Source of the DNA: Hanleya hanleyi
Taxonomy: Eukaryota; Mollusca; Polyplacophora; Lepidopleurida; Hanleyidae
Direction: 5' to 3'
Assembly (NCBI GenBank): GCA_036873755.1
Contig: JAVTVY010018897.1
Coordinates: 1-64,000 of the forward strand
Length of the DNA stretch: 64,000 nucleotides
In this document: piece after piece, positions 16,138-39,209 of the stretch
How the letters are laid out: each line of letters opens with the position of its first letter
Position numbering within the stretch: the stretch's first letter is position 1
The notes under the pieces: generated by a model
The model's database searches: none
The model's input: only the letters and a program-made list of their open reading frames with translations
Told to the model about the DNA's origin: nothing
Program-made: the position numbers and the translations under genes

Positions 16138-16497
16138 TGTAATTTCCTCGCTATAGTACAATACCGGTACGGAACGGGGCCTTACCTGTTGAATATTATC
16201 CCTATGTGCTCCCGGTGCTACGTCTTACAACCTTGAGATCTGCCGCAAGAGTGCCCTTGCCAACTCGTATCTCCCGGGGACTTATGTCTACTCGTCCCTG
16301 ATTGGCTGGTTTTCATGCAGCGCCCTCAGGGGCAATAACTCCCCGAGGTAGATAGCGTTTGGAGACCCTACTTAAGCCAGGCTAACCTACTCCCAACGGT
16401 AGCTAAGCTACATTTGGAGGCCCTGCCAAGGCTAGACTAACCTATTAAGGGTGGCCACCCTTGACTACCTATACGCTAAAGGGCAGTGTTTACTACA
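16138..16497 (-). repeat. 3' LTR (360 bp)
   Basis: On the minus strand it starts TGTAGTAAAC and ends GGAAATTACA, the canonical TG...CA ends. It directly follows a purine tract at 16,498-16,521. It matches 47,102-47,917 except that it lacks 459 bp between 11-bp repeats (cttgccaactc, here single copy at 16,257-16,267). Confidence 0.9.
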
Positions 16498-16521
16498 CCC
16501 TTCCCCCTTTTCTTTTTGGGG
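16498..16521 (-). other. Polypurine tract
   Basis: On the minus strand, ccccaaaaagaaaagggg followed by gaaggg lies immediately before the TG of the 3' LTR. This is the expected plus-strand priming site and fixes the element's orientation. Confidence 0.85.
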
Positions 16522-17336: not shown

Positions 17337-19103
17337 CTACAAAGGTAATTTGTACAACAGACAGGCATTCCGGCGGGTCACCTCCAGGATGACCCAGGGG
17401 GGCAAATTGACCATCCTGGACACCCAGCAGGCCACAGGCCACACTCCCCATGGTGTGTTGGGATTTCGGCCTCCGGGGGGCTTCAAATACGGGGAATCCG
17501 TCTCCAGGAGTAGCCGACCCATGCCCATCTCCCGGAGAACAGTATCATTGTCGCCATCACCCTCGCGAAGAGGTAAAGCGCTCATCCCGAACATGACGTT
17601 CGGGAAGCGCTTCACCCACGCTCGAAGGATGGCGACGTTCCCACTGAAGGAGTGAACATGAATCGGCCACCCTGGAGGCAAAGTAGCCCCCAGGAGGTCA
17701 AGCAGTCTAGCATGGGCAGAAGACTGACCGGGCTTCTTCTCCCTGCAGTGAATAACTACAGGGAGATTCCGCTCCACGGCCAACGGCAGGACTTTTTTCA
17801 GGAAATCCTCCTGCCGCCGGCGCTCTATGTCCGTCTCGTGTCCATGCCAGTCGAGACCCACCTCCCCCAGGCCACGGCATCGAGGCTCATCCAGTTTGGC
17901 AACTAAGGCTGTCATGGATGACCCCGAAACCGGAAGACTGGCCTGATGGGGGTGGATCCCGTAGGTGGTCTGTATTCTCGGGTCTTCCAGAAGACGCCGG
18001 AGGGCACCAGGCTCCGACCTGTTCGGGAAGACCAGGTTACAGATCACCGAAGTGATCTCCAGCCGCTCAGCATACTCCACATCGACCAACTCCCGAAGTT
18101 CCTCAAGACTGGTGAAGATCCCAAGGTCCTTTAGGAGTAGGTCAAGGTGGGCATGAGCATCCACCGCCCTCGGTGTGGGGCATACGCCCAGAGCACCGGT
18201 CAACCGCTGTGGATCGACCAGCTGCTCCCTCTGAGCAGCCGACAGGAACGCCAGGACGCGTCCCAGCACCTGCCAACTGATCAGAGCGGCCACCGAGGAC
18301 GGAGGGGAGACACTCAAGGAATGGGTAATGACCCCGCGGGAAGCATCGAAGGCCACCATTAGGGCCATACAGTTCCCCGTGGGGTCAACCTCCAGCTCCT
18401 GTGGAAATAGCCTGTTGGCCACCACGTAATCCAGCAAGGCCTGGTACGTGCTGACCCGCAGTATTTCCATCAGGGACTGAAGGAACCCGTGAAGGAGGGG
18501 CACCCACCGCCACCAGTGGTCATCGGTGAATGCCCACTCCTCCATAGATTCATGCTCGTCCGCTCCGTGCCGGAAACTATAGCCCAGAGAGGACGAGCGA
18601 TAGCCACACTCCCAGCAAAATCTCTCCGGCGACATCCAGGCTGGAAAGTGTATGCAGCCCAGATGCCGCCGAAGCTTCTGGCCGAGAGGCAGCTGGCAAA
18701 TAGGACAAACTTTCCTGCGACAGTCGGCGTTGATTTGAGCAATCCACCGACCGTCAGAGGGAAGAGGTCCTAGTTGTGGTCCCAGGGGACGGCCACCAGT
18801 GGTGCCCTCCCTTGGGACCACCACAGGTGGTTCAATGGGTCCCTCCAGAGGAGCCGGAGCAGGCACTACCGGCTGTGACCCCAGTGGATGGCCGCCAATG
18901 GTACCATCCACAGGGACCACACCAACTGGCCCACCCAACCCCACCAGAGGAACCCGATCAACTACAGGAGCTTCTGGCTCCAGGGGACGGCTGCAGCCAC
19001 CATCCCCCGGAACCACCTCCGCAGACCTACTGGGCTGTTCCACTTCGGGAACTGGAGGGGGCACCAAATCCTCCATATCCCGAAATGGAACACCCTCTCC
19101 CAT
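17337..19103 (-). CDS. Zinc-finger/TatD-type metal-dependent nuclease encoded by LTR element
   Basis: Intact ORF of 588 codons; a stop lies four codons before the ATG at 19,103. Residues 1-120 are Pro/Gly-rich. Two C2H2 fingers follow: C133, C136, H147, H152 and C163, C166, H179, H184. A helical linker runs to about 310. Residues 311-588 match the TatD amidohydrolase fold: HxH at 317/319 in VDAHAHLD, TTYGIHPHQ, E414 in GLGEVGLDW, H452 in VIHCRE, H484 in HVHSFSG and D536 in LLLETDSPYL. All expected metal-site residues are present. TatD proteins are 3'-5' exonucleases/DNases. The ORF sits where env lies in retroviruses, in the same orientation as gag-integrase. A role in cDNA end processing or removal of competing DNA is inference. 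Confidence 0.85.
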   Translation of the reverse strand: MGEGVPFRDMEDLVPPPVPEVEQPSRSAEVVPGDGGCSRPLEPEAPVVDRVPLVGLGGPVGVVPVDGTIGGHPLGSQPVVPAPAPLEGPIEPPVVVPREGTTGGRPLGPQLGPLPSDGRWIAQINADCRRKVCPICQLPLGQKLRRHLGCIHFPAWMSPERFCWECGYRSSSLGYSFRHGADEHESMEEWAFTDDHWWRWVPLLHGFLQSLMEILRVSTYQALLDYVVANRLFPQELEVDPTGNCMALMVAFDASRGVITHSLSVSPPSSVAALISWQVLGRVLAFLSAAQREQLVDPQRLTGALGVCPTPRAVDAHAHLDLLLKDLGIFTSLEELRELVDVEYAERLEITSVICNLVFPNRSEPGALRRLLEDPRIQTTYGIHPHQASLPVSGSSMTALVAKLDEPRCRGLGEVGLDWHGHETDIERRRQEDFLKKVLPLAVERNLPVVIHCREKKPGQSSAHARLLDLLGATLPPGWPIHVHSFSGNVAILRAWVKRFPNVMFGMSALPLREGDGDNDTVLREMGMGRLLLETDSPYLKPPGGRNPNTPWGVWPVACWVSRMVNLPPWVILEVTRRNACLLYKLPL

Positions 19104-19826
19104 AACCCTACCTTATACGCCGAAAACTTGATCCAAATCCGCCCCGTAACACTAGCCCACCCCCCAAAAGCTCGATCTAAATCCTCCCCGGATACCCCTG
19201 CCCAACCTACTGCACCCTCTACCCCACCCTGCGCTTGATCCTCTAAATCTACCACTACCCATCCCTCCATCTCCCTAACTACTACCCCCGTACTCCCACT
19301 ATCCTGCCCATTATCGTTTCCCTGGTCCATTTTATGATTTTAGTCAAAGATTTTAGAATTTCGTGATGGTGCGCCTAAATACTCTTGAGAAGCGTGTCTA
19401 CAACAAAAGAAACAACACTTATTCTAAACAACATCTAGGAGTTACATCAATCCATCACATTATTCCACGCTACAACATGAGCATGCAACGTCACAACATA
19501 AGCATGCAAGGGCACGAACACGAGCATGCAAGGGTACAAACTTGAGCATGCAAGGGCACAAACATGCTACACATCAACTGAACTACCTAGACCACAATCA
19601 AAAAAATGAACCAAAAAACATATATACAAAATGTTGAGCGCCATGGACAAGCTCCCCAGTGAACAATGGCGAAACACAGCATGCCACCCAAGGCCAGTTG
19701 TCTCACGCGAACGCGCGACACATCAATGAATTAGAGATCAGCTTCCATGAAACACATGGCGGCGAAACACAGCATGCCACCCAAGGCCAGTTGTCTCACG
19801 CGAACGCGCGACACATCAAATCTACT
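19104..19826 (-). other. Spacer between integrase and TatD ORF, with short duplications
   Basis: Contains a 94-bp tandem duplication (19,670-19,763 and 19,764-19,820, core aacacagcatgccacccaag) and several copies of gagcatgcaagggcacaaac at 19,475-19,567. A Gly/Asp/Glu-rich minus ORF at 19,330-18,962 overlaps the TatD start in another frame. It could be a displaced N-terminus but has no recognisable domain. Confidence 0.5.
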
Positions 19827-20261
19827 TTAACTCTCCACACCCAAAAACTGAGGGGGACGACTTTTTCGTCCAGCGCGAGTGACCCGCGGCGGTCCAATTA
19901 CTTCGTTCAAGTCTGAACTCAAGTCTGAAACTTGCTTTTTTTCCCCACGATGGGACCTCTTCCGTTTCGGTTTCCCAAACAACATCCCCAAGTCTAAGTC
20001 CGGAACATCAGATGTGAACAAGGGTGGAGCAGGGTTCTGATTAACTTGATCCCCCTCCTCCCCTACAATATTCTTTCCCAATTCGGTTATCCCAAGTATA
20101 GTGTGACGTCTCCGACGGACCCACAGGGGTACATCTCTGTCCCGGCACTGACGAAGAACGTCATGGTGCCAAACATGCGTACCCCGTCTGCTTTCAACTC
20201 GATACAAGCAGGGGCCCAGGACAGCCACAACAATATACGGGCCAGCAAAAATAGGTCGCAA
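19827..20261 (-). pseudogene. Integrase C-terminal domain, frame-shifted from its core
   Basis: The ORF shows RPIFAGPYIVVAVLGPCLYRVE followed by WHHDVLRQCRDR, the usual end of a Ty3/gypsy integrase, where a small beta barrel ends in a conserved HHD..L segment. A basic tail follows (KPKRKRSHRGEKK, RAGRKSR). It continues the integrase core of the preceding ORF after a shift near 20,265. Separate translation is unlikely. Confidence 0.7.
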
Positions 20262-21724
20262 CTTTTTACTCCGACCTCCTTAACAGCCAAGTCCGGGCGA
20301 TAAACTAAATCGCCTACGTTATAGACTTTCTGCTCCAATCTCAAGTCGTAGGTACGTTTTTGGCGCAACTGACATGCCACGACCTTATCACGGGCCAGGC
20401 GATGACCCTCCTCCAGCTGGAGTAGAAGCTGCTTCAGGTATTCCCCCCATGAAGATTGCTGGAGGTTCACACCCGCGACACCCAACACGATATCCACTGG
20501 CATCGTCACTTCCCTCCCTAACATCAAAAGATTGGGAGAGAAACCAGTGTCTCTGTTGGGCATTGCCCGAATGGCCATGCCGATCAATGGCAAGTGTTTA
20601 TCCCAATCCGACTGACGGCTCTCAAGGTAACACCGCACCAATTGAAGAAGGAGCCTGTTACACCGTTCCACCTGCCCATTAGAGCACGGGCGATACGGTG
20701 TGGTGCGCGTCTTGGTCACCTCGAAAACCCTGCAGAATTCGGAAAACAGATTACCATCAAAATTTCGACCCTGGTCGGTGTGTACCTGCAAGGGCACACC
20801 AAACCGAACAATGAAACCCTCTAGGAAACGTGGTACCGCACTCTGCTTCCCTCGACAGGCCTCTGCAAGCAATGCTTTTAGGGTCTTCTGCTGCTCCTCT
20901 GAAAAACCTCCCGAGCCTCCAGAGTCAGACTTGGCAGTCCAGGGACAAACAGCTTCATCAGCCTCGGTTGTCACCAATCTCACACCCTTAACGCCCATGG
21001 CACGATGATTGTGCAAGGAGGAATTAACATAGGCCAATGCCTCCTGTACAGTTTTCGGATCTTTTTCCATTGCGAAAACTACGGTTTGACGTTCACGGCA
21101 ACCCCTCAAAAAATGTTCAACGGCCACAGTATCGACTACTTCATCAGCAGCCCCTGGATAGCCTTCCCTAGCCAACTGCATGCAACGGTCAGCAAAATCA
21201 CCCAATGTATCATCAGCCCCCCGCTCCTCCACTTGCAAACGTCGTCTGACCGCATGTGCAGGCTCTTGCCTACCATAGCGCCTCTCCAGAGCTTCGATTA
21301 ACTTGTCAAATGAATTTCTAACCGCCTCTGGTAGGACGCGATAGAATTCCATAGCTTTCCCATGCATACACTCGCGGAGACGCCTAAGGGACTTGGCCTT
21401 GTCCCAACCACGACTGTCTATCTCCAATTCAAATTTGATTTTAAATGGGATCCAAGTATCCGCTACACCACCAAAAACCAATGTCTTTGGCAGTGGACGA
21501 CTGCGACTGCGATGGCGTGACCTCCCCTCACTGGTGGGAGATCTCGAACGCCTTGACGTTTGGGAGTCCGATAAGCGACTGCACCCAACGGCCCCACTAT
21601 CATCACTATCGGAAGAAGAATCCCCACCTGTTGCACCTTGTACCTGACCCCTAACATGTCGGTCTCGCAGAGGCGCTGGCAAAACTATCTCCGCCTCCGT
21701 GCGGTGCGGAGTTCGAGCAACCAA
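20087..21724 (-). pseudogene. Gag-integrase in-frame deletion fusion
   Basis: Residues 1-80 are Ser/Arg-rich. Residues 80-245 are a Ty3/gypsy capsid-like helical domain, including WIPFKIKFELEI, HGKAMEFYRVLP, TLGDFADRCMQLA and AVEHFLRGC. At about residue 294 (near 20,842) the frame passes directly into integrase core: VHTDQGRNFDG with the second catalytic Asp, TTPYRPCSNGQVER with the catalytic Glu, then NRDTGFSPNLLMLGRE. Protease, RT, RNase H and the integrase N-terminus with the first Asp are absent. The last ~60 residues, after about 20,270, are out of frame. Integrase activity is not expected. Gag could still form particles. Confidence 0.75.
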
Positions 21725-22527
21725 CTCCCCGCGTCGTGAAACGTTCGGGTTGGAGTACCAACGCGATCACCCTCACCCTACTAACTTGAGAGACTGGAGT
21801 ATGATAACTAGAGGAGTCAGTTTGAGCCTCTCTTCCGGGGCCCACAGGGGGAACTCCACTACCATAGAATCGCCCGCTCAATGTTATGCATCCAATGGGG
21901 CTGGCGATCCTCCCCAGAATTAACATAAGGCAATCCAATATATGATCCACCTGGTGTCATCTCATTCAGTTCACCAGGTTGTAATTCACTGGATAACAAA
22001 TTCCGCGAAATTGGCGGTGGATTACCTCCAGTTACGTTTACGCTCCCTGGTGTCTGCAACTGGCTGACCCGAGCTTGTTGACTTTCAAGATCAATAAGGT
22101 CAGACCCAACAGGAATAGATGCATCCCCATTAACAGGCAATGCTGGAGTTGGCTGCCCCCCAGCGACGCCACTAGACTGCGCTACATTCGTATCCCCCAC
22201 CCCCCTAACCATTGGAGTAGACGTCTGGCCGCGCATCATGGTCACCAGCATTCCAAACTGGTCCCCCATGTTGGTAAACCCTGCCCCTAATCTATCATCC
22301 ATCCCCCTCAAGTGAGAATCCATCCCCCTCACTTGAGTATGCATCTCACCCACTTGAGATGTCAATCCAGTCAATTGGTTACCATGCTCAGTTAACTGAA
22401 CCCCATGTGCACCTATTTCCTCCTTAATCACGTCTATTGCTTCCTCAACCTGACCAACACGATTTCCATAGTGATCCAAGTTTTGTTCCACTCTTGTATT
22501 TAGCGAAGTTGAACTGCTCTCTAACAT
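21651..22527 (-). pseudogene. Middle part of gag (coiled coil and linker), frame-shifted
   Basis: The ORF 22,527-21,859 has a clear heptad coiled coil over its first ~100 residues (NRVGQVEEAIDVIKEEIG, repeated QVRGMDSHLRGMDDRL). A Gly/Pro/Thr-rich linker follows. It joins the upstream helix-hairpin-helix ORF by a shift near 22,515 and reaches the capsid ORF through another break at 21,650-21,860. It is one original gag reading frame, now broken. Confidence 0.55.
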
Positions 22528-22954
22528 CCCTAACTAAAGTGTCCATTTCAGACCTAATTTCCCGAATTTGAAGTTCAACTGCCAAATTATTTCGCTGCTC
22601 CTGAGTATCCATCAGGGCAGAGACATACTCTGGACCCTCTGTATTTACCCCTGAAATAACTGAAGCCCGTAATATGGCTACAATATGTGAAGCAGAGAAA
22701 CGCGTTGCGCGCATGAAATCTCTAAAGTTAATAGGCTGGCCCCCAGACCGACATTTGACAATTGCTTCGGCCTTTACTTTACCAATACCCTCTATTGTCT
22801 GTATCTCATCAACCGTAGCGGTTGACGTCAATTGTGTAATCCGACATATTCGAAAATGAATATGAATCACGCGCGGCGTCAAAATAAAGCAGCGGCGCGT
22901 GAAAAGGAGCAGTGAATTATACTCACTGATCCAAACAACCCACTTACCACGCAA
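22445..22954 (-). pseudogene. Gag N-terminus with helix-hairpin-helix motif
   Basis: The frame contains TVDEIQTIEGIGKVKAEAIV followed by FRDFMRATRF. The GIGKVKAEAI hairpin is the hallmark of helix-hairpin-helix (ComEA/DNA-repair type) domains, which bind DNA non-specifically. No in-frame ATG precedes it convincingly; the upstream part may be leader. The Polinton interrupts the element 50 bp before this ORF. Confidence 0.55.
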
Positions 22955-22998
22955 CTTACCAAAACAAAATCTGGTCTGGTGAACTGCTGAAATTACAA

Positions 22999-23004
22999 CA
23001 CATA
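22999..23004. repeat. Target-site duplication of the Polinton, left copy
   Basis: CACATA immediately precedes the inverted repeat that begins AGTAGTAAGAG. The identical hexamer follows the right end at 42,888-42,893. Six-base duplications are diagnostic of Polinton integration. Confidence 0.95.
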
Positions 23005-23238
23005 AGTAGTAAGAGAGGGACAGTTGAAAGCCACCGAATTCGCGGTGCTATTACTTAAATACTAGAGAAACGCCGCCATCTTGGTGCGGTGCGGGCGTGA
23101 GAGAGGGACAGTTCAAAGCCACCGAGTTCGCGGTGCTATTACTCCGCCGCGTTGGTGCGGTGTCGGCCCGGTGTTGCCGCGGGCGCCGTTCGTCGACGAA
23201 TCGGCGACGCGTGACTAATGCGGTACGCCCGCGGGCAC
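23005..23238 (+). repeat. Polinton left terminal inverted repeat (234 bp)
   Basis: Starts AGTAGTAAGAGAGGGACAGT and matches the reverse complement of 42,618-42,887 with few differences. The terminal ~45 bp (gagagggacagtt...gtgctattact) is repeated inside the same repeat at about 23,100. The inner half is very GC-rich (cgcgggcgcc). Confidence 0.95.
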
Positions 23239-23371
23239 AATTCACCGGCCCGCGTCTATACCCGGAGGCGGTGTTGTAATCTGACGCCCCATCCATCATA
23301 GTGAACATCAATTGCGGAACACCACCGAGGCTTGTCCTAATTTGCGGTGCTAAAGAGTGTGTTACAGTCAG
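23239..23371 (+). repeat. Subterminal promoter-proximal repeat, copy 1
   Basis: From aattcaccggcccgcgtcta to gtgttacagtcagt this segment is repeated in the same orientation at 25,876-26,010 with about 10 percent differences. In the first copy it leads straight into the TATA box of the zinc-ribbon gene. Confidence 0.8.
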
Positions 23372-23386
23372 TAGAGGGTTTCCCCA

Positions 23387-23394
23387 TATAAAAG
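23387..23394 (+). promoter_or_regulatory. TATA box of the zinc-ribbon gene
   Basis: TATAAAAG lies 39 bp before the ATG at 23,433, preceded by a stretch duplicated at 25,876-26,010. Confidence 0.7.
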
Positions 23395-23432
23395 CCGGGA
23401 ACTCTCCCTCTTGGACCATAACGTTCGCCGAA

Positions 23433-23663
23433 ATGGACAGGTGTTTGCGCTGTCAGATGATAGCAAGGCATGATGTCTACAGAATGTTGCGAAAACGTTA
23501 TTTCGATTGTAATTGGTGCGGGGTTAAATTAAAACAAACATTTTGGGACCGACATTTCATGAAATGTCCAAAACGTCCGTGTCAGAAGGACGTGTGCACC
23601 TGTGGATACAAACTTGAAATATTTGCGATAGAGAAAATATTAATGGAAAAAAATGAGAAATAA
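23433..23663 (+). CDS. Small zinc-ribbon protein of the Polinton
   Basis: 76 codons. I chose the ATG at 23,433 because a TATA box ends 39 bp upstream; the open frame before it overlaps the promoter. The protein has paired cysteines CLRC and CNWC, then an HFMKCP step and a CQKDVCTCG cluster, consistent with two small zinc sites. The last third is Lys/Glu-rich. AATAAA overlaps the stop codon. No family recognised. It sits next to the left end, where Polintons often carry variable accessory genes, so a DNA-binding or regulatory role is plausible but unproven. Confidence 0.65.
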   Translation: MDRCLRCQMIARHDVYRMLRKRYFDCNWCGVKLKQTFWDRHFMKCPKRPCQKDVCTCGYKLEIFAIEKILMEKNEK

Positions 23664-23880
23664 ACGTGAACAAAGGAGCTATTCATTTTCGCATAGCTCT
23701 CGTTAACGCGCATTTAGCGTTAGGGTGTTTTGTCAAGGTCTTAGATGACCCCATTTGCGGTGTTCGCAAGACTGCGGGAACATTGCGGTGTCCACTTCGT
23801 TGGAATATGGAACGTGATTGGGCGGAACTCTTCTAGGAAAAAACACCCCATTACAGCAGACATGTGGGCGGGGATAATGG

Positions 23881-23888
23881 TATAAAAG
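23881..23888 (+). promoter_or_regulatory. TATA box of the left PC4-like gene
   Basis: TATAAAAG followed by GGGGC, 62 bp before the ATG at 23,950. Confidence 0.7.
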
Positions 23889-23949
23889 GGGCAGAAAGTT
23901 TGTATTTCCCCACTCACTTTTGAGAACCAACCGAAGCCCACAGCCAACC

Positions 23950-24792
23950 ATGTTTCATCTCTATTACCAAGTGGGGTTGAAAGTATACGGTGAGAACAAT
24001 GCAGCGCTTATCTCTATTATGGACTATGCCGAATCTCCTCGAAACAATCCGCAGAGATGTGCCCTTCTGACGGTAAAGGCCTGGGAGACTCTGAAGACCA
24101 GTGTAGAAGACATGGACAGATTGTTATGTGAAAAGGGGGAAACGAGAAAGCCCATACAACTCGACGGTGATCTTCATCTCACTATGGGCGTCTATCGGTC
24201 AAGACCGGGCATACATCTGAGGATTTGGCCGAAGAATGGCGAAGAACGATATCCCACAAGGCGGGGGATAATGCTGGACGAGAGGCTGTGGATGGCCCTT
24301 AAAGCCCAGATGCCATCCGTCGATATCGCCGTAGAGGAAATGTTGTCATCATTCCAAAACGATGTGACTTCCGACAGCGCGGAAGAATCGGACTCTGACC
24401 ACCCTCTTTCCTCGAGTAAGGGCGAGACTGACATCTTTTCGAAACGAACGTTCGACGACGCATATGCAACTGTCGTTATATTGAAGATCCAGGAACTCGA
24501 TCGGGAACGGTGCAATGGATGTAAGATAGACCACCCATCTCAAAGGCAGCACTCATGCATGATGATACCGGCAGCCCAGAAAGTGGAAGCTCTTTTCGAA
24601 GATGCGTACAACATCGTAGACGAGGTCGACGTAATGAGCGAATTTATGAGACTAGTAGACGTGGAACAGGAACTACTGACTCATCCAATACAGCGGTCTA
24701 ATTTCCACTGCCCCGGCTACAGAGAAAACATCAAGACAGAGACCTGGAAGAATGCCTTGTACGAAACCGTCAAAAAAAGGCTGAGTGAGTGA
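23950..24792 (+). CDS. Polinton protein with two PC4-like domains (left)
   Basis: 280 residues, starting at the first ATG after a TATA box. Residues about 6-50 and 68-125 each look like a PC4/p15 ssDNA-binding fold. The second is clearer: LTMGVYRSRPGIHLRIW, then a charged loop and RRGIMLDERLWMALK, paralleling the VxVxxxxGxxxVxIRxY...KGIxLxxxxWxxL pattern. A Ser/Asp/Glu-rich linker (about 130-170) leads to a C-terminal part with CNGC, DHPSQRQHSC and helices. PC4 proteins bind single-stranded DNA as dimers; two copies in one chain could mimic a dimer. A role in replication or transcription of the element is inference. A paralogue lies at 33,209-33,853. Confidence 0.6.
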   Translation: MFHLYYQVGLKVYGENNAALISIMDYAESPRNNPQRCALLTVKAWETLKTSVEDMDRLLCEKGETRKPIQLDGDLHLTMGVYRSRPGIHLRIWPKNGEERYPTRRGIMLDERLWMALKAQMPSVDIAVEEMLSSFQNDVTSDSAEESDSDHPLSSSKGETDIFSKRTFDDAYATVVILKIQELDRERCNGCKIDHPSQRQHSCMMIPAAQKVEALFEDAYNIVDEVDVMSEFMRLVDVEQELLTHPIQRSNFHCPGYRENIKTETWKNALYETVKKRLSE

Positions 24793-25024
24793 ATTAGTAC
24801 CATCGGGATTACGGGTGATTCGCCATTAATAGTGTTAGTGTGCTCGGTCAACATTAAACATCGGCGATTGTGGAATACCTGCCACATGCGTAACCTACCA
24901 TCGACTTTTAGCCCGCACGAAGTCGTCCGAATTACTTAATATGGAAAAAATAACAACGATGAACACTCATTCAGACTTGAAACAATATTTATGGAGGTAT
25001 GTGATGGGGGGAGCCTGCCACCCA

Positions 25025-25087
<63 letters not shown>

Positions 25088-26342
25088 CTGAAGGACATAC
25101 TAGTGTCGCATACAATGTCTCCTTTCCCTCGTCGCCCTATACTTTCAACCCAACTTGGTAATAGGCGTGAAACATGATACGTATGGAAAGAACGCCAGTA
25201 ACGCGGTGAAACGTGTGGAACTTGGTAATGTGAAAAAAGACGCGAAACAATGTGTTCATTCAGAATGTGACGCGGCGTCAACGTCCGTGTATAAATGTAA
25301 TGATATATCCATTAATGAAGCCGCTCCTATATATTTAAATGGACACCCCCAACAAAAAAAACCATTCAATTTGGACATGGAACAATATTCAGTACTGTAT
25401 CTAATGCGGTGACAGCGTATATATATATATGTGTGTGTGTACCGACTTATATGATCATTAATCATGTTGTTCTTGGATAAAGAAGATATATATTCATCAA
25501 ATGCTGTTTCATCTGTTATTTTTCTACTCATATATACGTCAATGGCATGGTCTTCACAGTTTTTATCTTTAAAAATCGTGTACTTAATGGGATTGGGATT
25601 TTTCCATCCATTAATTCGTTCATAGGAAAAAAAAAGAGATCATTTAAGACGGCCGCCTACGCAGATGTATCCGTTAATTAAACGGTGTTTTAGGTGAAAA
25701 AAAAAATATCACGAATTCGTGCCAAGCCCAGCTTTTCTTCCTGTTTTCGTTGTTTCGTGCTCACCTCGAATAGGCATCTAATTACGGAGGAATGGGACTT
25801 TTTGTTTCGTGTCCTCGGCGGTTAACATTTTTCACCGCCCACGTAGTTCTCTCCGTGTGTCTATGACGACGCCGATTCACCGGCCCGCGTCTATACCCGC
25901 TGGCGGTGTTATAGTTTGACGCCCCATCCATCATAGGGAACATCAAATGCGGGTCACCACCGCGATCTGTCCTAATTTGCGGTGCTAAAGAGACCGCCGT
26001 GTGTTACAGTCAGTTGAAGTTGCATCCGTTAATTAAACAGTGTTTTAGGTGAAAAAAAATCACGAATTCGTGCTAAGCCCAGCTTTTCTGTTTTCGTTGT
26101 TTCGTGCTTCCCACGAATAGACATCTAATTATGGAGGAATGGGACTTTTTGTTTCGTGTCCTCAGCGGTTAACATTTTTCACCGCCCACATATTTCTCTC
26201 CGTGTGTCTATAGTGAAGCGGTGAAACGCATTCACGCATTTTAAATACGACACCTCCATGAGCCATACAGCAGTCATTTTGAAGTAATCGGAGAGTCAAT
26301 ATCTCATAAATAATAAAAGGGGGAGGGGGGACTATTCATAAG
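24793..26342. other. Polinton intergenic stretch with duplications and (TA)n
   Basis: Holds a (TA)n microsatellite at 25,028-25,086 and the second subterminal repeat at 25,876-26,010. A ~200-bp direct repeat lies on either side of that (25,665-25,870 and 26,025-26,222), with core cggttaacatttttcaccgc. An open frame of 85 codons at 25,155-25,412 starts after a possible tag acceptor but has no ATG in a good context, so I leave it unassigned. Confidence 0.6.
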
Positions 26343-26350
26343 TATATAAA
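26343..26350 (+). promoter_or_regulatory. TATA box of the four-exon gene
   Basis: TATATAAA, 53 bp before the ATG at 26,404. Confidence 0.65.
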
Positions 26351-26403
26351 ACGGCTCCCAAACTCTAGAATTCAGTCCAGAGCTTGAGGATCCGCGTCAA
26401 CGA

Positions 26404-29400
26404 ATGTTCTTGGAGGGGTATAGTTTTACGAATATTACCACAGGTTCGCAGCTGGCCCGGTCAAAACAAGAAGGGTTGAGCGACCACGAGAAAGCTGGTG
26501 AGTTATTAATTTTTATCATACTAACGTCTTTCATTATTTATTTCAAGTTGATTATCCTGAAGACCTAAGATAAGTTACCACGCATCTGTAAGCTAAACAT
26601 GCGCATTGTCACGTGATCAACAAAACTTAATAAGATGAGTTTTGTCAGTCGTACTTGGTAGAAGGGGGAGAAACAAGGTGCAAAGTCAGAAATGAATGTA
26701 AAACAGTTCATCTTCACTAAAATCGTTGAATGGTAATTGAAAACACTATATAGTTGCAACCCTATGAATAAATAGCTTCTATTTCACGGCATATCCCAGA
26801 TGTTAGGCGGACACGTACACTTTGGAGATTTAGGAATGTTGGCGTATGTTGTTTTTTTGGAAGGTCGTCTCAGAGCGTTGGATTTGACGACCATCGGACT
26901 GCTGAGATGTATGGTCAATAGTCCGGTTAGCACCTAGGGAGTTTAATCTCCCGGTGTAATTAGTTGGACTTCCGCAACACCATGAAGAGCACATGTGTCC
27001 GATATGGGTATGTTCCTGCTGAGAATTTATGCGGCGAGCATCGGACACCGGTCTACATAATGTTATGTTATTACATCGGATACAAGTCGTGATCGAGTGG
27101 TGAAAAATGACTTACATTTACAATGTCTGCTCAGCGTCATTCATCCGCTGGATTAATCGGTTTCTGTGAGAAAAAAAAAACAGATTTTTTATGTCAACCC
27201 TCAAACTATAAATGACTGATTTGTCGCCCGGATTTTTTTTCTTCTAATTTATAAAGCGGATAGAATAAAATATCTTTAAGTTCAGATGAATATATAATGT
27301 TAAAAATAATTATACGTGTACAAGACAATGGCTCTACTGTCATTTACTCGGGAAACTTCACCATTGACGTTTTAATCGAGATCAAATTTTTTAACGTAGC
27401 TCGTTATCGTATAATACTCACATTATGCGTCTTTTCACATTCACATCATCAAGTTGTTGGACTCGTTCACTATTTAAAGAAAACAAATTAAACCATTTCT
27501 CATAAAATTCACATTATTATCATATAATCACATCCATTTTTTCTCGAAAAGCTATCAATCTGGAGTATAATATATATATACCTCATTCATACTACTGCTA
27601 TGAAGGAAAAAATATACTATACTTACAGTTGTTGACGCCATTCGCTAATATCTCTTCTCAGAGAAGCATTCCTCCATCTGGGTGTAGGGCTATAATAGAT
27701 AACGGGGAAAAGAAAATACAACGATTAACTGTCACATCATATCAAAAGGACGTTTTAATATTCTACAAGCATCAATCAAGTCATGTACGGTAAACTATGA
27801 ATAAATGGTATTATAAGAAAAACATATATCATTACAATACGTGTAATTAGTGTCTAACCGGTTTACCGAGTGTCTAAGCCTATATATATGCGAGTATGGT
27901 ATATATATAAATGTTATTCCTACGAAGTAGGCTACAGATCGCAAATTGTCCGGTAATGAGTGAGTCAGTCAGTCAGTCCATCCGAATCCTTTCGTCGGCA
28001 AAATAAGGAGAACCGTTGACATTATAACCTTGATTTTTGGCATGAACGAGCATTAGGGCATTGTTACCAGCTAGTTCTGATCTGAAATAATTCTGATTAA
28101 AATTAGATTTATGATTAACACTTCAGTATATTGTTATATATATGTAAGCTGTAGCCTGTAACGTGTATCCTGTTTCACATCCAAACATGTCATCATTGCC
28201 AAGAAAACTGTGGTCCGTTTTGCTCCAGCGTTTTATCGCATTTAATGAGTAGGCCTATCAGTTACTCTCCGGCTAAAAATACCCTACTGCATATACCCTC
28301 AAAAATTCAGCGCTGTTTGCATAACGAAGCTGAGGTGGTTTAACGTTTATCATAAAGAAAATCACCGATCAACTGCCATAGAATATAATGTGAAACAAGG
28401 AAACCGGAATAGTACATTCATCAGATTGCCGATACCCAAAATGTGTTGTCTCATATATCTAGATAACAACGTGATGTAGAGACGCTATTTATTCGTCTTT
28501 GTACCGGTTATGCTCAGGAGAATCACATAGAATCATTATTATCTTGTGCATAGAAGGTGTTGGTCTCGAGTTGAATTACCGTAAACTACATAAATGCTAC
28601 CTTTCTATACTATAGTACTATATATAAAAATTTGGTGTATTGTTGGGAAAATAATGTGATTTAAAAAGTTGTTTTGATCCTGGACAAGGGCACTAAAAAC
28701 CACTAAAGAGATGTAGATGTATTTTCACACGTAAAGCTTGAAATCTAGTGAACCTATATTATTCAATCTGTTTCCTTTAAAAAAAAATGTAAAATTAAAT
28801 CGGTGATCGTTATTTATTTTGGAAAGAAGGCGCATTAGGAGACTGTTACCAACAAGTTCTGAGCTGACCTATTTTTGATGGAAATTTCTGGTGATTTTTG
28901 ATGAAAATCACTGGCGATTCTGACTTGGGCGGTGCCCATCTTAATATAGGTAGGATTTCAACTGGGGGTGGGGATTTCCAAGAGTTCAGTTCGCGTTCGA
29001 GTCCTAATGCCTACTGTACTTCGTAGGTCCTGTGACGTTAGTCACACTGCTCATGTGTACTATAAAAAAATTCATATAAATTGAGTATTCCAGTATATGC
29101 ATATACAGTAGCATGCTGTAAGTAAAATCTTTTACTATTATATTACACTACATTTCTGGGAAATAATTTTGTCGTACTTACTCGTTCAGCGCTCTAAACT
29201 GTAATAGTGAAAAAATACATGCAAACTAGAAGTCAAACTCTCACTTTTTTAGGATGACAAAGTGTATTACAAGTCCATCATTCATAATCCAACCGCCCTC
29301 CATTAGACACTGGTAGATAGATATTACACTTTCTTAAGCTGAGAAATACTGGGGAAACAACACACAAAAATATAAAATAGAATATAGGTGATAATGAAAT

Positions 29401-30858
29401 AAATTTTAAAAAGTCTTACCCCGACAAAATTGGACGTCGACGATACCTCATTCACTTGAGTTCTGCCATCGTCGAGGACGATGACTTCGTTTCCACCGCT
29501 GAAAAAACAGAAGAAGGGAAATGGCGTAATATGGCGAAAGACCATTTCATAGTGTTACCGCAATTAATGTAGGACATAAAACACAAACCATGAGTTACTT
29601 ACTGGGCCATCGTTCTAAAATGACACGATAAGGCTAGGTGCCTACCACTAATAAAACTATAACCGGTTTCCTCTCTTGCAGAAACTTCGTGTGCAAAACA
29701 ACTGGTTGGTACCATGGATGAAAATCGAGCTCGTTTAAGGTAAACGTTCTAAGTATCTAGATTGATTGATGAACTCTCGCATTTTGTAATTTAGACAGAA
29801 AATACCTATATCACCGATATATCACAATTGTCATAGCGGGGAGAACACGCTCCAATGTTATAGCCCGAGGGCACTTGTAGTCATGTTTTGATATATACTT
29901 CCTCACGCACGGCTGGTCGGTTCGCTGAGCCGAGACGTATATGTTTCCCCTCAAACTCCATTGAAAATATACTCGATAAATAGGCAGAATCCATGAATGT
30001 GCTCGTAGAGCCTGGAAATTTTGTTTTCGACCAAAAAAAAATTTCGATTTTTTTTAATTTTTTTTTTTTTAATTTTTTTTTTTTTTGAAATTCATTAAAA
30101 TCTCAATATCTCTGGAACGGGAAGGGCTACTGCGATGAAACTTACGTCGTTGGATAGCCAGGAGAGAGACGCGTCGTTGGATCACCATGGTGACGTCATA
30201 GTGACGTCACAAGATGAATCGCACGAATTTCGGGAAAATCTCAATATCTTGGGAGCGGGAAGGGTTACGGGGATGAAACTAACGCCGTTCGATAGCCGAG
30301 AGAGAGGCGCGTTGTAAGACAACGTCATACGACGTTATAGCGAGTCATATTAGGAATTTTCGGGGGATAAGTCAGATTTGAATCTTATGACTATTCTACT
30401 CCAGGGTGCTTTGATAACGTAAAGTGTATGACTCCCATTTGTACCTATTTTAGCTGGGACAAAGACGAATTCGTGGACGGTCTCACAAAATTATGGGACT
30501 ACGATTTGGAACGAATCCGACAACAGAGTTGTGGGCCTGATTCGAACAATGTTGATATCACGAGCCCCTGGCGATCGCCCTCGAAACGACGCGCATGTGG
30601 GACTTTCGACGGTGAGTGCATTAATTTCGCGAAAGCGAAATACGATATGTGTAGACTACGCACTTACATACATTAGGCTTTAACGCTAAAGCGGACCCCC
30701 TGTTCATGCAATACCATGAACAAGTTAACTCTGTATTGAAAAACGGTCTTAAGTCGACCGATAGTATGAAATCCTACAAATGTTTATTCACCCAAGGAAA
30801 AGGCGATAATGTACAATCGCCCCATTTTAGAGAATTATTGACATGTTATGGAAAGTAA
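26404..30858 (+). CDS. Four-exon Polinton accessory gene (163 codons)
   Basis: Predicted exons: 26,404-26,497, 29,682-29,739, 30,454-30,611 and 30,677-30,858. Donors are G|GTGAGT, G|GTAAAC and G|GTGAGT. Acceptors are ctctcttgcag, acctattttag and tacattag. Junction phases are 1, 2 and 1, each restored exactly by the next exon, and the total is 492 nt with a TAA end. Exon 3 encodes an acidic then basic stretch (KDEFVDGLTKLW, PWRSPSKRRACG). Exon 4 is Lys/Ser-rich with CLFTQGKGD. No family recognised. Intron 1 (3.2 kb) contains a whole antisense gene, and further small exons could exist within it. The last intron is only 65 bp. Confidence 0.7.
27118..29610 (-). CDS. Five-exon antisense Polinton accessory gene (70 codons)
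   Basis: Predicted exons on the minus strand: 29,610-29,603 (ATG with A at -3 and G at +4), 29,498-29,420, 29,198-29,182 (17 nt), 27,689-27,627 and 27,163-27,118. Donors are GTAAGT, GTAAGA, GTAAGT and GTAAGT. Acceptors follow pyrimidine tracts: tctgttttttcag, ttcactattacag, gttatctattatag and ttttctcacag. Phases 2, 0, 2 and 2 are each satisfied, giving 213 nt ending in TAA. The product is a small, mostly hydrophilic protein with an acidic N-terminal half (EVIVLDDGRTQVNEV) and a basic helical C-terminal half (RRDISEWRQQL). Function unknown. A 5' non-coding exon may exist. Confidence 0.7.
29268..29310. repeat. Fragment of a Penelope-like 3' end
   Basis: The segment from ttacaag to tccattagac resembles the terminal ~45 bp of the element at 10,503 in the same orientation. 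It lies within an intron of the Polinton accessory genes. Confidence 0.45.
30088..30315. repeat. Tandem duplication with CRE-like palindromes
   Basis: Two units share aaaatctcaatatct, gggaagggytac, gatgaaact and gatagcc...gagagag. Between them lies tgacgtcatagtgacgtcac, two CRE cores in 20 bp. It is within intron 2 of the four-exon gene. Homopolymer T/A runs precede it at 30,030-30,085. Confidence 0.6.
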
Positions 30859-30944
30859 ATCGGTCATACTACGTACTCATTTAACAAAAGCACATTACGA
30901 CGTCTGAGGCGATTACTGCGTGTACGAAAATGGTACCTTCTTAG

Positions 30945-31178
30945 GGCGAGACTGTTGTTGAAAACTGGGAAATCAACTCAAACAGTTTGTCCCCGCGATG
31001 GAAGGTAAGTTTTCCCGGCATATCCGTACACGAGCTTCCTCGAGAAGCGCTGCCGATGTCCGTGGTGACATGGATTTCGATTCGAGCGTGGAATTGCCTT
31101 GAATTCGCTTTTTTGCGAATTCTTAATCAGACAACTCATCCATACACATCCAAACATCGCCATTGTTCACTATTTTAA
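30945..31178 (+). other. Possible extra exon pair downstream of the four-exon gene
   Basis: A 60-nt segment 30,945-31,004 is flanked by accttcttag and GTAAGT. A 48-nt segment 31,131-31,178 follows ttcttaatcag and ends in TAA if read in phase 0. A second reading phase is also open. No start exon with a matching phase was found, so this is a candidate only. Confidence 0.3.
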
Positions 31179-31685
31179 CTTTTAACATTTACACTCGTTC
31201 TCGATAACAAAATAATATATATATATATATATTCTCTGAACACCAGTCCTGTTCTAGAGTTGGTCCCGTGTTATTCAATGTTCGACTGTTGATGTTCATG
31301 TTATGGCGTGCTAAACATTCATACGCCCAACATTCACACGCGTACAATAACGCCAATGATTTCTAGTTTATCAGAAATCGATTCCTGTCCGACCAAAATA
31401 GACATAATGGTAAAAGACACTTTTGCCCGAGGAGGAGGTGTGTGTTGGTGTGTGTGTGTGTGTGTGTGAGGAGGAGCAAGAGGAGGAGGAATTAAGTGAC
31501 TAGTATAAAATAGGGGCAAAGCAATACGAAGATTACTAAATAATCGCTTTATTCATCAACTCATAGCACTGAGCAAATAATGGGAGAAAACTGCTTATAT
31601 GACATACATCTCCATTGTTGTGGGTATCATTTCGATATCTAGCCTTCCATTCAATGTTTATGTACGAATATTTCCACTGGGATCT
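31179..31685. other. Non-coding Polinton stretch
   Basis: Contains a short (AT)n tract at 31,210-31,231 and a (GT)n tract near 31,440-31,470. I see no gene. Confidence 0.4.
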
Positions 31686-31889
31686 TTATTCGGAGTCCTC
31701 GCTATCACCGTCATCAATCAACTTATCGAATAAGCATTTCCGCATCTTAATCGTCTGGCTGAGTGCTTCCTCATAGTCTATGTCTGTCACTGAAAGTCGA
31801 TTGAAGAAGATAATTTCCAGTTTCCAGCTGCGTCTCCATAAAGCTTTGACTTTAATAATAACATCAAATATTTTATCAACAAAAAGACA
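31686..31889 (-). other. Possible 3' coding exon, minus strand
   Basis: An open frame of 67 codons runs from a possible acceptor (ataaccag) at 31,890 to TAA at 31,686-31,688. The peptide is strongly charged and coding-like: LWRRSWKLEIIFFNRL, YEEALSQTIKMRKCLF and an acidic end DDGDSEDSE. There is no start in frame. A TATATAAG word at about 32,397-32,404 (minus) and a tttacag/GTAAAG donor near 32,345 could belong to its 5' end. Confidence 0.35.
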
Positions 31890-32894
31890 CTGGTTATGCT
31901 GTTTTATTCACTATTTTACACCTTGCGCAAGTTTAAAGGCTAATTTATGACCCCGAAGTTCTAGTTCAGCGCTTTCAAACTTGTCTCAAGATTGTATAAA
32001 CTGTGAACAGAGTGTCGCATTAAATTCCAGTCGGGCGGAACTAATGAGGTTGACCTCTCCTTCATGTCATTTGGCCTATAGTCGATTATAGATCGTTAAC
32101 GAGACTTTCATACGTTGAACTCGCAAATCTGTAGAGTACGAGAGAATGGCACGCTCTATTAATTCTTACATTAGACATAAAGTTGAGATTTTCACGGGGT
32201 AAAAAAATGTTTGATGATCGCTGACACATTACAGTGACGTAGACTATGTTGAGGAGGTTACTTTGGTATTGTGATAGACAAACGTGAACATATCAAGGGT
32301 ACAGGTTGACATAATATGCTCAGATCACAAACTTGAAGTGCTTTACCTGTAAAGTAAGATGGTCAGAGATTGTTGCATGTTCGTATAGGACATGATGGCT
32401 TATATACAATAGTCGAAAAATGCAATGTCGACAGACTTTCGAAACGTTTTCCAGAAAAATATACACGTCAACGATACAGAATTAGGAATGACGTTATATA
32501 GAAAAATAAGCAAGTAACAGTATATTTCACACAACAGGATATAGGTCTGTTAGGTCAGGGGCAGTATTTGGTGACGTCATTATCCCCGAAGCCGAGGAGA
32601 CTGTCCAGTTTTATAAGCTGTAAACATTGTATACAGTTTTCAATCGACAACTTGCTGTAGTAGAATATGGGTATACACTAGTAGTATTGAAAACGCACAC
32701 AGAAATGTGACGGTATAAACTGAAAACTTTTAATACAACTGACAGAATGAGTAAGTAGGGGAATAGGTTATACATGAAAATACGGCATTGACTCAATATT
32801 GCAGAATATTGAATAATAACGTTGATTCGGCAGAATTTTTCCTCATTGCTGTCATATTGATTATACGTCATGGAAATTCTTTGTTCTATATCAG
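31890..32894. other. Non-coding or intronic Polinton stretch
   Basis: AT-rich. No ORF with supporting motifs. Possible promoter and splice signals for the minus-strand exon at 31,686 lie in its middle. Confidence 0.35.
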
Positions 32895-33122
32895 ATGGTG
32901 AAATCAGGTGAATTGTACAACATAGCGTCGGGATTGTGCAACCGTTCACCATTGGCTGTGGCGTCATACGACGTAGCACGGGGGAATACCCGAACAAATA
33001 GGAGAAATTCAGGTAACCGATTTGATTTTAAGCGAGATCGACCAGTCTTACAGTTAATAACGGTATACACAAGTCTCACTTATTATACGAAGCCTTCTCC
33101 CATTAATAGCGTGAAGGGTTAG
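32895..33122 (+). CDS. Short ORF, possible exon
   Basis: 75 codons. The ATG directly follows a pyrimidine-rich ttgttctatatcag, and a GTAACC donor occurs at codon 40, so the first part could be an internal exon. Peptide composition (SPLAVASYDVARGNTRTNRR) looks coding, but no homologue is recognised. Confidence 0.3.
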   Translation: MVKSGELYNIASGLCNRSPLAVASYDVARGNTRTNRRNSGNRFDFKRDRPVLQLITVYTSLTYYTKPSPINSVKG

Positions 33123-33208
33123 GAAAAAAAGTTTAACGTTATGAAGTCCCATATATGAATGATGAAATAGGAACAGTCTTTCTTCTAATGTTCACATTGT
33201 TCGAGTTT

Positions 33209-33853
33209 TCATCGCTGAAGTAGTCCAGCCCCAAAGGGATTGCACGTGTCACAATACAACTGTTCCATTTGGTTGCGGTGTAAAATGCCGCACATAGAGA
33301 CGCCGTCCGCTTCATCGTATGAATATCCACCATTATCATTCACCAAATTTTCGCTCGGTGGATCACTCGCGGCAGATCCAACTGGTTTAGGTGGGAGAAT
33401 TGGTCCTGTGATAGACTTGTTGAATTCGTTGCTGACGGAACGCTGTTCTATTTCAATCATGTTGGTCTCAATGATAGGAATGAGTTTTTTCAACATATCC
33501 CAGCCTTTCGTGTTCAGCGTGTGTCCGTTCCGACCCGGTTTCAACTCGCTGGTTGGTGATTTTAGGTACCACTCTCTTATGTGGACGAGCCATTCCCCTT
33601 CATACGCTGCAGTGCTTATGTATATATTATCTTGTAGCTTGAATGGAGTTTCAACCGTCTCTTTAGCCTGAATCATTCTATCCACTCTAGGCAGGAATTG
33701 TTTGAATGAAAACCACCCATCTCTCGTCAGTCGTATGGCAACACCATAAGGTTTTATAATCTGCCCATTATGCCGTATACGTTGAAATGTTACTCGAGGA
33801 GAATTTCCTTCACCGCTCACTAAAGCGTAAAGGTTACTCATTAGTCTATACAT
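33209..33853 (-). CDS. Polinton protein with two PC4-like domains (right)
   Basis: 214 residues from the ATG at 33,853; the frame open to 33,901 lies in the promoter, since TATATAAAG is at 33,909-33,917. Residues about 15-60 (VTFQRIRHNGQIIKPYGVAI, DGWFSFKQFLPRV) and 75-130 (ISTAAYEGEWLVHIREWYL, LKPGRNGHTLNTKGWDMLKK) match PC4/p15 features: a beta strand, the IREwY turn, a Lys-Pro-Gly loop and a closing helix. The second repeat is a good match by eye. The C-terminus has CDTC. It is transcribed divergently from PolB, suggesting co-regulation with replication; ssDNA binding is inferred. Confidence 0.65.
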   Translation of the reverse strand: MYRLMSNLYALVSGEGNSPRVTFQRIRHNGQIIKPYGVAIRLTRDGWFSFKQFLPRVDRMIQAKETVETPFKLQDNIYISTAAYEGEWLVHIREWYLKSPTSELKPGRNGHTLNTKGWDMLKKLIPIIETNMIEIEQRSVSNEFNKSITGPILPPKPVGSAASDPPSENLVNDNGGYSYDEADGVSMCGILHRNQMEQLYCDTCNPFGAGLLQR

Positions 33854-33908
33854 ATCGGCTTTTACAGGTGCGACAGTCGTAGAATAAAGTGAGAAGCGCA
33901 CGAGAAGT

Positions 33909-33917
33909 CTTTATATA
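33909..33917 (-). promoter_or_regulatory. TATA box of the right PC4-like gene
   Basis: TATATAAAG on the minus strand, 56 bp before the ATG at 33,853. Confidence 0.65.
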
Positions 33918-34012
33918 CGCATTGGTTATTTTATCAGTTGATCATCTGAACCTTGACGACACCTCGACCTACTCACCTAGTTACAAAGATAGTCTCTACC
34001 TACCACCCCGAT

Positions 34013-34020
34013 TATATAAG
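34013..34020 (+). promoter_or_regulatory. TATA box before PolB
   Basis: TATATAAG on the plus strand, back to back with the minus-strand TATA at 33,909; the first ATG in the PolB frame is 14 bp downstream at 34,034. Confidence 0.55.
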
Positions 34021-34033
34021 GCCATACGACTAT

Positions 34034-36552: not shown

Positions 36553-36801
36553 CTGAATAGATCCCATACATAAATAAGTCGACAGCAGTATACAATCTCC
36601 GAGAAAACATATTTCTTTATTATTATTATATCAAAACAACTCGAGTAATGAATGTAGCATGCGGTAACGATATCATTCACGTTGTATTAATTATTATAGA
36701 CACGCCTTCTTTACCATCGTATGACAATGTACTACCCCATTTGTCGAAATATATCGAATACAATGTTATTAATGTATTGTTTTGTTCGTGTCTTCATTCT
36801 A
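36553..36801. other. Convergent intergenic stretch
   Basis: Lies between the PolB end and the leftward gene set. tttatt at 36,616-36,621 gives AATAAA on the minus strand, a possible poly(A) signal for the ATPase-side transcript. Confidence 0.5.
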
Positions 36802-37365
36802 CTAGAGTCGACTTAATGACTTCTCGTGCATTTGCACACTCGTCCTCCAAGCGTCATCAAAATGAACACCGTCTTCAGACTGCACCCTGTCGCACGTGTT
36901 CATAAGTTCACCCATGACACGATCCTTTAACTGAAGGGCGCGTAGATTTGACACTGTGTTGATGACCGCCTCACGTAGCGACTCTCTCATTTGCGGTATA
37001 AAATGGTCCTCCGCCAAATTCGCTGCCCGGCTTTCCGCGTATCCCGCATTCATATACTTCAGTTTCTTCTCGGCGATGGCGGTGTTATAGGCCAGACGTG
37101 TAGGAATGGCGAATTGCGTCTTCCAAATTTCACGCAGTATCTTTTTATTGCGGTTTGCATTAACGACACTAGGGCGGCGCCTTTTTCGAACTCCACTACC
37201 CCCAGTCTGCTGAATGCCTTTAAACCAGGGCGGTGTTTCCCTCGTGAACATGCCATGCCCCGCTTGAATATTTGCGAGAATATTTTTATCCAGTCTCCGT
37301 GCTTCGGGAGTTGTAGGTCTCAAGTTTATGAATAATGATCCAAACGGGGTACGTGGTAACGGCAT
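36802..37365 (-). CDS. ATPase C-terminal frame plus basic extension
   Basis: 187 codons. Its first ~30 residues (TPFGSLFINLRPTTPEARRL) look like the usual end of the Polinton packaging ATPase, which the ATPase frame itself loses at about 37,345. The rest is separate in character: GGSGVRKRRRPS, a basic stretch, then helices. Either a single shift broke an ATPase with a long C-terminal extension, or this is a distinct small basic protein with overlapping 5' end. The first seems more likely. Confidence 0.45.
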   Translation of the reverse strand: MPLPRTPFGSLFINLRPTTPEARRLDKNILANIQAGHGMFTRETPPWFKGIQQTGGSGVRKRRRPSVVNANRNKKILREIWKTQFAIPTRLAYNTAIAEKKLKYMNAGYAESRAANLAEDHFIPQMRESLREAVINTVSNLRALQLKDRVMGELMNTCDRVQSEDGVHFDDAWRTSVQMHEKSLSRL

Positions 37366-37897
37366 CCTCGTACGCCTTCATAAAGTAATCCAAACGTGTA
37401 GGGTAAATGCGACGACCCAATAATGTGATTTGCTGTTTATCGATGGGGTTATTGAATAAAACCATATAGTGACAGTTCAGCGCGATGTCCCTCGAGGCTT
37501 TTCCCCCCTCGAATAGATTCTGCACTATATAGATAACAGACACGTTGTCGTGGTGGGATCCTTTAGTGAACAAATCGGATATCCTGGTGTCGTTTTTCGC
37601 CTCCGTCATGAGATCATCAATGACGATGAGATTTCTCACTGCGGAATCGAAATAGGCGTCATCGCCGAGATTCGCGGGTATTCCTCTAACGAACTCCATC
37701 CCCGGTATCACTTTCAACATTTCCTCGTATAGAGGTTGCCATTTGCCGTAACAGTAAATAATTCTCTGCGGTGTAGGATGCACATATTGTTTAATTCCTC
37801 GCAATAGCTTGTCCACCCATACACTTTTCCCGCTAAAAGAAGGTCCAACAACCTTCATCGTAAACGGGTGTTCCAAAATCACCTTTCTATGCTCCAT
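37286..37897 (-). pseudogene. ATP: Genome-packaging ATPase (FtsK/HerA type), C-terminus shifted
   Basis: The start is set at the ATG at 37,897; the open frame before it contains the TATTTAAG promoter word at 37,944-37,951. Walker A is GPSFSGKS near residue 20, Walker B is LIVIDD, and QN at about residue 130 fits the sensor region. The family drives DNA into capsids. The frame to 37,286 ends in sequence unlike the family; the expected C-terminus is in the overlapping frame of the 187-codon ORF. It follows integrase by 72 bp. Confidence 0.8.
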
Positions 37898-37969
37898 GAT
37901 CGATGCGAGGAACGGACTGACTGTACACCACGCATGCACGCGTCTTAAATACACCGATGTCGAACGGAA

Positions 37970-39076: not shown

Positions 39077-39110
39077 GAACTCGAATGATGAAAACGATGA
39101 CTCACACCTC

Positions 39111-39120: not shown

Positions 39121-39209
39121 ATAAGAAAACGAACGGTGTGTGGTTTACTAAACCTTTTATTAATATTGATAGGACAATGCGAGTGGTTTAACAATGCAAG
39201 TTCGGCGAA

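Follow-up and report, generated by a model that had tools for sequence, protein, structure and literature searches.

In the usual view, gag and pol are all that an LTR retrotransposon requires; extra enzymes encoded in the env slot are uncommon, with roles that are unproven, and the bdelloid DEDDy exonucleases are the one prior case known to us of a nuclease ORF3 in LTR elements. In the excerpts of PMC5408684, DEDDy-exonuclease ORF3s occur in several families of bdelloid rotifer LTR retrotransposons (Juno, Vesta); their invariant residues are preserved, DEDD having become DEED, they are typically expressed from spliced messages, and the ORF type is common to another retroelement class. TatD is mentioned 0 times in that paper (PMC5408684). 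An orchid Ty3/gypsy lineage with an m6A demethylase domain (PMC9289625, in excerpt) is likewise an LTR lineage with a captured enzymatic domain, with another enzyme and in another host kingdom. A literature search covering titles and the starts of abstracts in open-licence PMC did not find TatD in an LTR retrotransposon. Three papers considered as reports of a TatD retrotransposon were set aside, the available portions concerning a wheat gene name that is not TatD (PMC7545183), a host gene (PMC5840709) and a retrocopy (PMC5408686).

Like the bdelloid elements, the lineage described here consists of LTR retrotransposons in several families whose ORF3 encodes an enzyme with a nuclease fold. According to the excerpts of PMC5408684, however, the bdelloid ORF3 has an RNase D-like DEDDy fold, was acquired at least two times independently and does not deviate significantly from neutral evolution within the genome, whereas the ORF3 here is predicted to be a TatD metal-dependent hydrolase, appears to have one origin common to five families and has low pN/pS. 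The first-pass annotation of this DNA had stated that retroelements with a second, hydrolase-type nuclease in the env position are no established class; enzymatic ORF3s, including a DEDDy nuclease, are known (PMC5408684, excerpts), and the statement holds in that none of them has TatD. The general idea of a nuclease ORF3 has precedent, and TatD as ORF3 appears to be new.

The window, which is the whole 64,000-nucleotide stretch of Hanleya hanleyi DNA that was analyzed, carries the TatD ORF in the env position as the third ORF of the element (17337..19103, minus strand, read from 19103 to 17337). It has 588 codons without a stop, with M1 at 19103, and lies in a stop-to-stop frame of 591 codons (17337-19112). 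Residues 317-588 matched PF01026 (TatD_DNase) over profile positions 1-253 of 253 (E=1.6e-37; 129.7 bits vs a cut-off of 27), and the finger motifs lie within residues 133-184. All six metal residues (H317, H319, E414, H452, H484 and D536) were identical in 21/21 related ORFs from five families; their roles as ligands (H, H, E, H, H, D) are presumed from the TatD family in general and from the naming in the first-pass annotation. The intact ORF, the TatD domain and every metal residue that the annotation had named are thus present, and the ligands hold in all 21 related ORFs. Pfam searches of eight third ORFs gave only TatD and a weak Amidohydro_2 match, with no DEDDy domain. Solved relatives found by sequence were bacterial TatD/YcfH proteins and human TATDN3, with TATDN1 added when a ten-ORF profile was used. 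Like known members of the family (E. coli TatD and YcfH; human TATDN1 and TATDN3), the window protein has the full Pfam domain and the metal residues; in contrast to them, it has a two-finger N-terminus, falls below the TIGR00010 cut-off and is carried by a retroelement. The score against TIGR00010 (NCBIfam) was 96.3 bits vs the 206 required, and by that cut-off the window TatD is a divergent branch outside the TIGR00010 subfamily.

Residue 1 (M1) is probably not the native start, because the third ORF of L026, a related copy, extends 77 codons beyond it on the upstream side. At 19330 the window has the ATG that matches the start of the L026 and L028 third ORFs; it is not in the frame of M1, and by comparison with these two copies it is likely to be the native ATG; the upstream part of the third ORF (19104..19330, minus strand) runs from this ATG in a frame that differs from that of M1. 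Copies with an open third ORF do exist. The TatD ORF had been described as the only long ORF of the element without a break, which is correct from M1 onward, but further upstream the third ORF is out of frame.

The ends of the window element were placed using L028, whose third protein is 98% identical to that of the window copy, and its upstream piece L029. All parts lie on the minus strand. The 5′ LTR (47103..47917) is interrupted by ~450 bp, with matches at 47917-47679 and from 47230, and is followed by the untranslated leader of the same element (44296..47102), assigned by comparison with L028/L029. The gag region (20832..22993) is split into several ORFs and is joined through an internal deletion to an integrase remnant (19827..20831) consisting of the end of the rve core and an SH3_Tf2-1 / p58_C-type C-terminal domain. 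Relative to L026, ~3.3 kb are missing near 20831, comprising protease, RT, RNase H and part of integrase. A polypurine tract (16498..16517) adjoins the 3′ LTR (16139..16497), the two lying ~840 bp beyond the stop codon of the TatD ORF; 359 bp of this LTR were matched, starting TGTAG, and its last few bases are unlike those of the 362-bp LTRs of L028/L029. The third ORF's location downstream of pol was borne out, as were the polypurine tract and the Ty3/gypsy-like order of domains. A helix-hairpin-helix motif was observed near the gag start (window 22445-23047, minus strand; PF00633, E=7.1e-6), which is unexpected for gag.

The 5′ LTR and leader (47917-44296) are parted from gag by a nested insertion of ~20 kb. 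This stretch (22994..44295) is not part of the retroelement and consists of a Polinton/Maverick-like element and, beside it, a stretch repeated at ~509-bp spacing (42888-44295). Terminal inverted repeats of 189 bp, 97% identical, lie at 23005-23193 and 42699-42887. Between them are a DNA polymerase B (PolB; 34082-36451, plus strand), a chromodomain integrase (37970-39187, minus strand), an A32-like ORF (37286-37969, minus strand) and PC4-domain ORFs (23878-24792, plus strand, and 33209-33910, minus strand). By these features, 23005-42887 is a Polinton/Maverick-like element that landed inside the retroelement. Elsewhere in the window, three long overlapping frames occupy one stretch (540-2860, minus strand); the two frames scanned matched unrelated families only, which is likely to be chance arising from repeats.

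Related copies were assigned to family A (the window copy, L026-L028), family B (L013, L015, L017-L023), family C (L010-L012, L014, L016), family D (L024, L025) and family E (L009). Third proteins of families B-E are 38-44% identical to the window protein over the matched stretch. The fullest layout was read in L025, in the order LTR, gag (CCHC)-PR-RT-RNaseH-IN-TatD, LTR; its pol is one 1552-codon frame (protease at 189, RT at 523, RNase H at 746, integrase from 1053 onward) and TatD is the next ORF. L026 has the same domain set with pol split over two frames, while L023 has gag, protease and the end of integrase, without RT. LTR pairs were found for L028/L029 (362 bp, 99.7% identical), L025/L030 (240 bp, 99.6%), L016/L032 (~305 bp, 97%) and within the internally deleted L024 (240 bp, 100%), and the near-identity of these LTRs points to recent insertions. 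No LTR pair was found for L023/L031 or L009/L033 (2/5 end comparisons, with 3′ flanks compared over ~1 kb), and no target-site duplication was clear in three LTR pairs. The polypurine tract at the 3′ LTR is clear in the window and L028 and less clean in L025 and L016. By layout and domain order, the lineage is an LTR retrotransposon of Ty3/gypsy-like type. In L027 (G000:C15598), repeats at ~2.9-kb spacing include N-terminal parts of the TatD ORF, a tandem duplication within one copy.

The source genome (2.48 Gb) contains at least 149 TatD matches, for which 149 of 547 candidates were scored, and at least 86 matches to the window protein, for which 74 of 864 candidates were scored. The domain is not confined to the window copy, and 30/36 of the matches to the window protein that span ≥500 residues have no stop, among the matches listed. 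Twenty TatD loci of ~10 kb each (5.8 kb for L022) were picked from open, high-scoring rows, their openness therefore being partly selected. RT was found in 13/20 and integrase in 18/20 of these loci with one query set, on the TatD strand and upstream of TatD. With further queries included, gag or pol pieces of LTR retrotransposons of the same lineage lay upstream on the same strand at 19/20; in L024 the pieces are gag and the terminal part of pol, together with a pair of LTRs, and the exception was L011, which had no gag/pol piece among the ~10 kb read. To offset the selection of these loci, a spaced sample was drawn as every eighth TatD match from row 21 (37 and 93 were already in the set; 85 and 149 were dropped), giving 13 slices at the expected integrase distance. 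Pol of the same lineage was present on the right strand in 12/13 slices, L040 having no pol in its slice. The related copies of this gene in this genome accordingly are not restricted to places outside LTR elements, pieces of which lie at 19/20 loci and in 12/13 slices. Because L037 and L042 are only ~50% and ~64% alike to the known pols, more families exist beyond A-E.

Between families, the TatD domain is 40-65% identical, compared with 74-90% for RT and integrase, 34-56% for the N-domain and 56-89% for protease. The TatD domains of A and B are 49% identical and those of C and E 50%, so that by identity alone both pairs are equally near. In the RT tree, A and B split from C, D and E at 98/96, and in the integrase tree at 99/98, with D and E together in both. 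In the TatD tree, C, D and E group together (97/99), with D-E inside at 100/98, and A and B are not resolved. Nine element TatDs form one group (95/98; long branches are flagged by the program); P0002, a metagenome protein, adjoins this group on a long branch (99/96), and TatDs of the L001-L008 type lie apart from it. Since the family groups agree in the TatD, RT and integrase trees, one capture of TatD followed by descent with pol is the best explanation of that agreement.

For the TatD domain, pooled pN/pS was 0.027 in family A (6 pairs), 0.197 in B (36), 0.237 in C (10) and 0.157 in D (1), pairs within families not being independent. The proposed dN/dS comparison among copies thus yields pN/pS values of 0.03-0.24 within families A-D. 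For the integrase core, pN/pS was 0.131 in A (2 copies), 0.468 in B (7) and 0.111 in C (3). In family B, integrase pS (0.028) is far below TatD pS (0.16) and integrase pN/pS is higher than that of TatD. This difference in pS makes family B a poor selection test and indicates that copies have probably exchanged their 3′ part. In four family B copies (L015, L017, L019 and L021), the stretch beyond pol, TatD included, differs by 6-7% while pol is 97-98% identical; these are mosaic copies, perhaps produced by template switching.

In the window protein, the finger motifs are C133/C136/H147/H152 and C163/C166/H179/H184. Among 10 aligned ORFs, H147, H152, C163 and H184 never vary and the remaining four finger residues are ≥90% conserved; both C2H2 zinc fingers described in the first-pass annotation are there as well-conserved motifs. 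The two-finger region (residues 128-312) had no relative among 838 database candidates. In the protein database, the window protein (P0001) gave a single match, P0002, with 28% identity over 44% of the query, and alignment A1 used as the query likewise gave a single match, to P0002; in these searches, scores were obtained for the 8000 candidates sharing most words. A scan of viral contigs with P0004 found no relative. A structure model of the window protein was built on two sequences (P0001 and P0002) and is of low confidence (mean pLDDT 46.5; pLDDT <50 for residues 1-311). With this low-confidence model, the best Foldseek matches were TatD structures (E 5.4e-14; TM by target 0.80), led by TATDN3 2y1h, 6l25 and 2gzx and with E. 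coli TatD and YcfH in the top ten, at a fold-alignment identity of 17-24% over the first 12 rows. Basic KRPR and KRQR patches, seen by eye in the third-ORF regions of L025 (family D) and L009 (family E), resemble nuclear localization signals.

Ty3/gypsy elements with env (gypsy/errantivirus type) likewise have a third ORF after pol with an acceptor-like site before it; in contrast to their glycoprotein, the third ORF here would encode a nuclease without a strong membrane anchor. On the simple Kyte-Doolittle scale, no strong anchor was found in six third ORFs (maximum 19-mer mean 1.49-1.77). A pyrimidine-rich tract ending CAG or TAG precedes the third ORF in 5/5 families; in the window, the splice-acceptor-like site (19398..19420, minus strand) is such a tract with TAG, 67 nt before the ATG at 19330, and in the copies tested the distance from site to ATG is 0 to 54 nt. 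By a simple pyrimidine score, these sites, which had been noticed before being tested, ranked 17/296, 4/301, 6/277, 2/314 and 1/328 among the YAG sites of their loci. An 80-nt window test at the same loci gave 0.198, 0.025, 0.097, 0.041 and 0.008 (combined p=5e-4). Only in the A, B and D copies does the tested ATG share the frame of the TatD ORF; the C copy has its first in-frame ATG 44 nt downstream of the tested one, and in the E copy the frame is lost beyond the ATG. A stricter test, run with each copy's own first in-frame ATG, gave a combined p=0.016. In the A, C, D and E pieces, donor-like GTRAGT sites precede gag at about chance frequency (estimated from the 6-mer); none was found in the family B piece, in which no leader was located. 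The acceptor-like sites suggest expression of the third ORF in an env-like manner, from a spliced subgenomic RNA with the acceptor just before the start; our confidence in this was lowered from fairly good to a little above even because the stricter in-frame-ATG test was weaker.

The element runs from an LTR and a long leader through a gag that has CCHC knuckles and a pol of protease/RT/RNase H/integrase to TatD, a polypurine tract and the second LTR. That the TatD ORF is a bona fide element gene is close to certain. The chance that it is instead a captured host gene or a chance neighbor is very small: TatD is a widespread cellular family, found in 14/14 control genomes, and the genome has other multi-copy intronless TatD ORFs (L001-L008), but in five families the gene always follows pol at one place and on one strand, which argues against this, as do element TatDs that group apart from L001-L008 and share family groups with pol. 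A chance ORF or host neighbor was ruled out by the linkage to pol at the loci and by the TatD, RT and integrase trees. The protein is very probably catalytically competent. A structural accessory protein that keeps the TatD barrel and no longer cuts is improbable; metal sites can persist for stability, but the six residues are the same in 21/21 ORFs even though the families are 35-60% different. As a third gene of a Ty3/gypsy-like lineage, the TatD ORF would encode a nuclease that is active, dependent on metal and recruited to nucleic acid through its zinc fingers. It would most likely act in the nucleus, before or during integration, on the replication product of the element itself; taken whole, this account is moderately probable. 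Such a nuclease might trim cDNA 3′ ends or flaps, or cut abasic or damaged sites. One family model matched by the TatD ORF bears the name 3′-5′ ssDNA/RNA exonuclease, and human TatD relatives have abasic-site activity. The most economical role would be to trim or repair cDNA ends ahead of integration, and this is our leading guess, although a role in cDNA processing is itself held only tentatively, at somewhat less than even confidence.

Two other roles compete with this reading. In counter-defense, the nuclease would degrade nucleic acids with which the host keeps the element in check, for example silencing RNAs, RNA-DNA hybrids or sensor ligands. Fast divergence between families is common in accessory genes exposed to the host, and TatD and the N-domain diverge between families far more than RT and integrase while being constrained within them; the finger domain could also select substrates. 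Protease likewise outpaces RT, however, so that fast divergence alone does not establish a host conflict, and counter-defense appears unlikely, though less so than the other rivals. As a weapon against competitors, the nuclease would destroy non-integrated DNA of other retroelements, a use compatible with the env position, the intact metal residues and the presence of several families in the genome. It would need to discriminate own from foreign cDNA, for which nothing is visible in the sequence, and families with different TatDs coexist; this role is therefore more doubtful still, at about the level of the non-cutting barrel. A broader scenario joins parts of these, in that one old capture would have given rise to a nuclease-armed lineage whose env slot holds a spliced, fast-diverging, finger-guided nuclease directed against host silencing or rival DNA, with a second multi-copy repeat of this genome having recruited TatD separately; we regard it as rather unlikely. 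That second set (L001-L008, L034-L036; rows 1-14 of the TatD matches) is distinct and multi-copy, with open frames of 304-325 aa and a CCCH-like N-terminal motif seen by eye. In L034 and L036, the two wider stretches fully read, TatD lies downstream of a large ORF; the two large ORFs are 55% alike over ~228 aa and have no clear Pfam domain. As a guess, this set is perhaps another mobile element carrying TatD.

The lineage has kept a second, unrelated type of nuclease, its active-site residues intact across five families and its pN/pS low within them. What an extra nuclease does for a retroelement thereby becomes testable by biochemistry and transcript mapping. A caution also follows for large invertebrate genomes, where genes annotated as "TATDN-like" may belong to retroelements. 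One place to look for a retroelement TatD would be the Hox cluster of the giant squid, in which a TATDN2 label stands beside transposon-like genes in the excerpt of PMC6962438.
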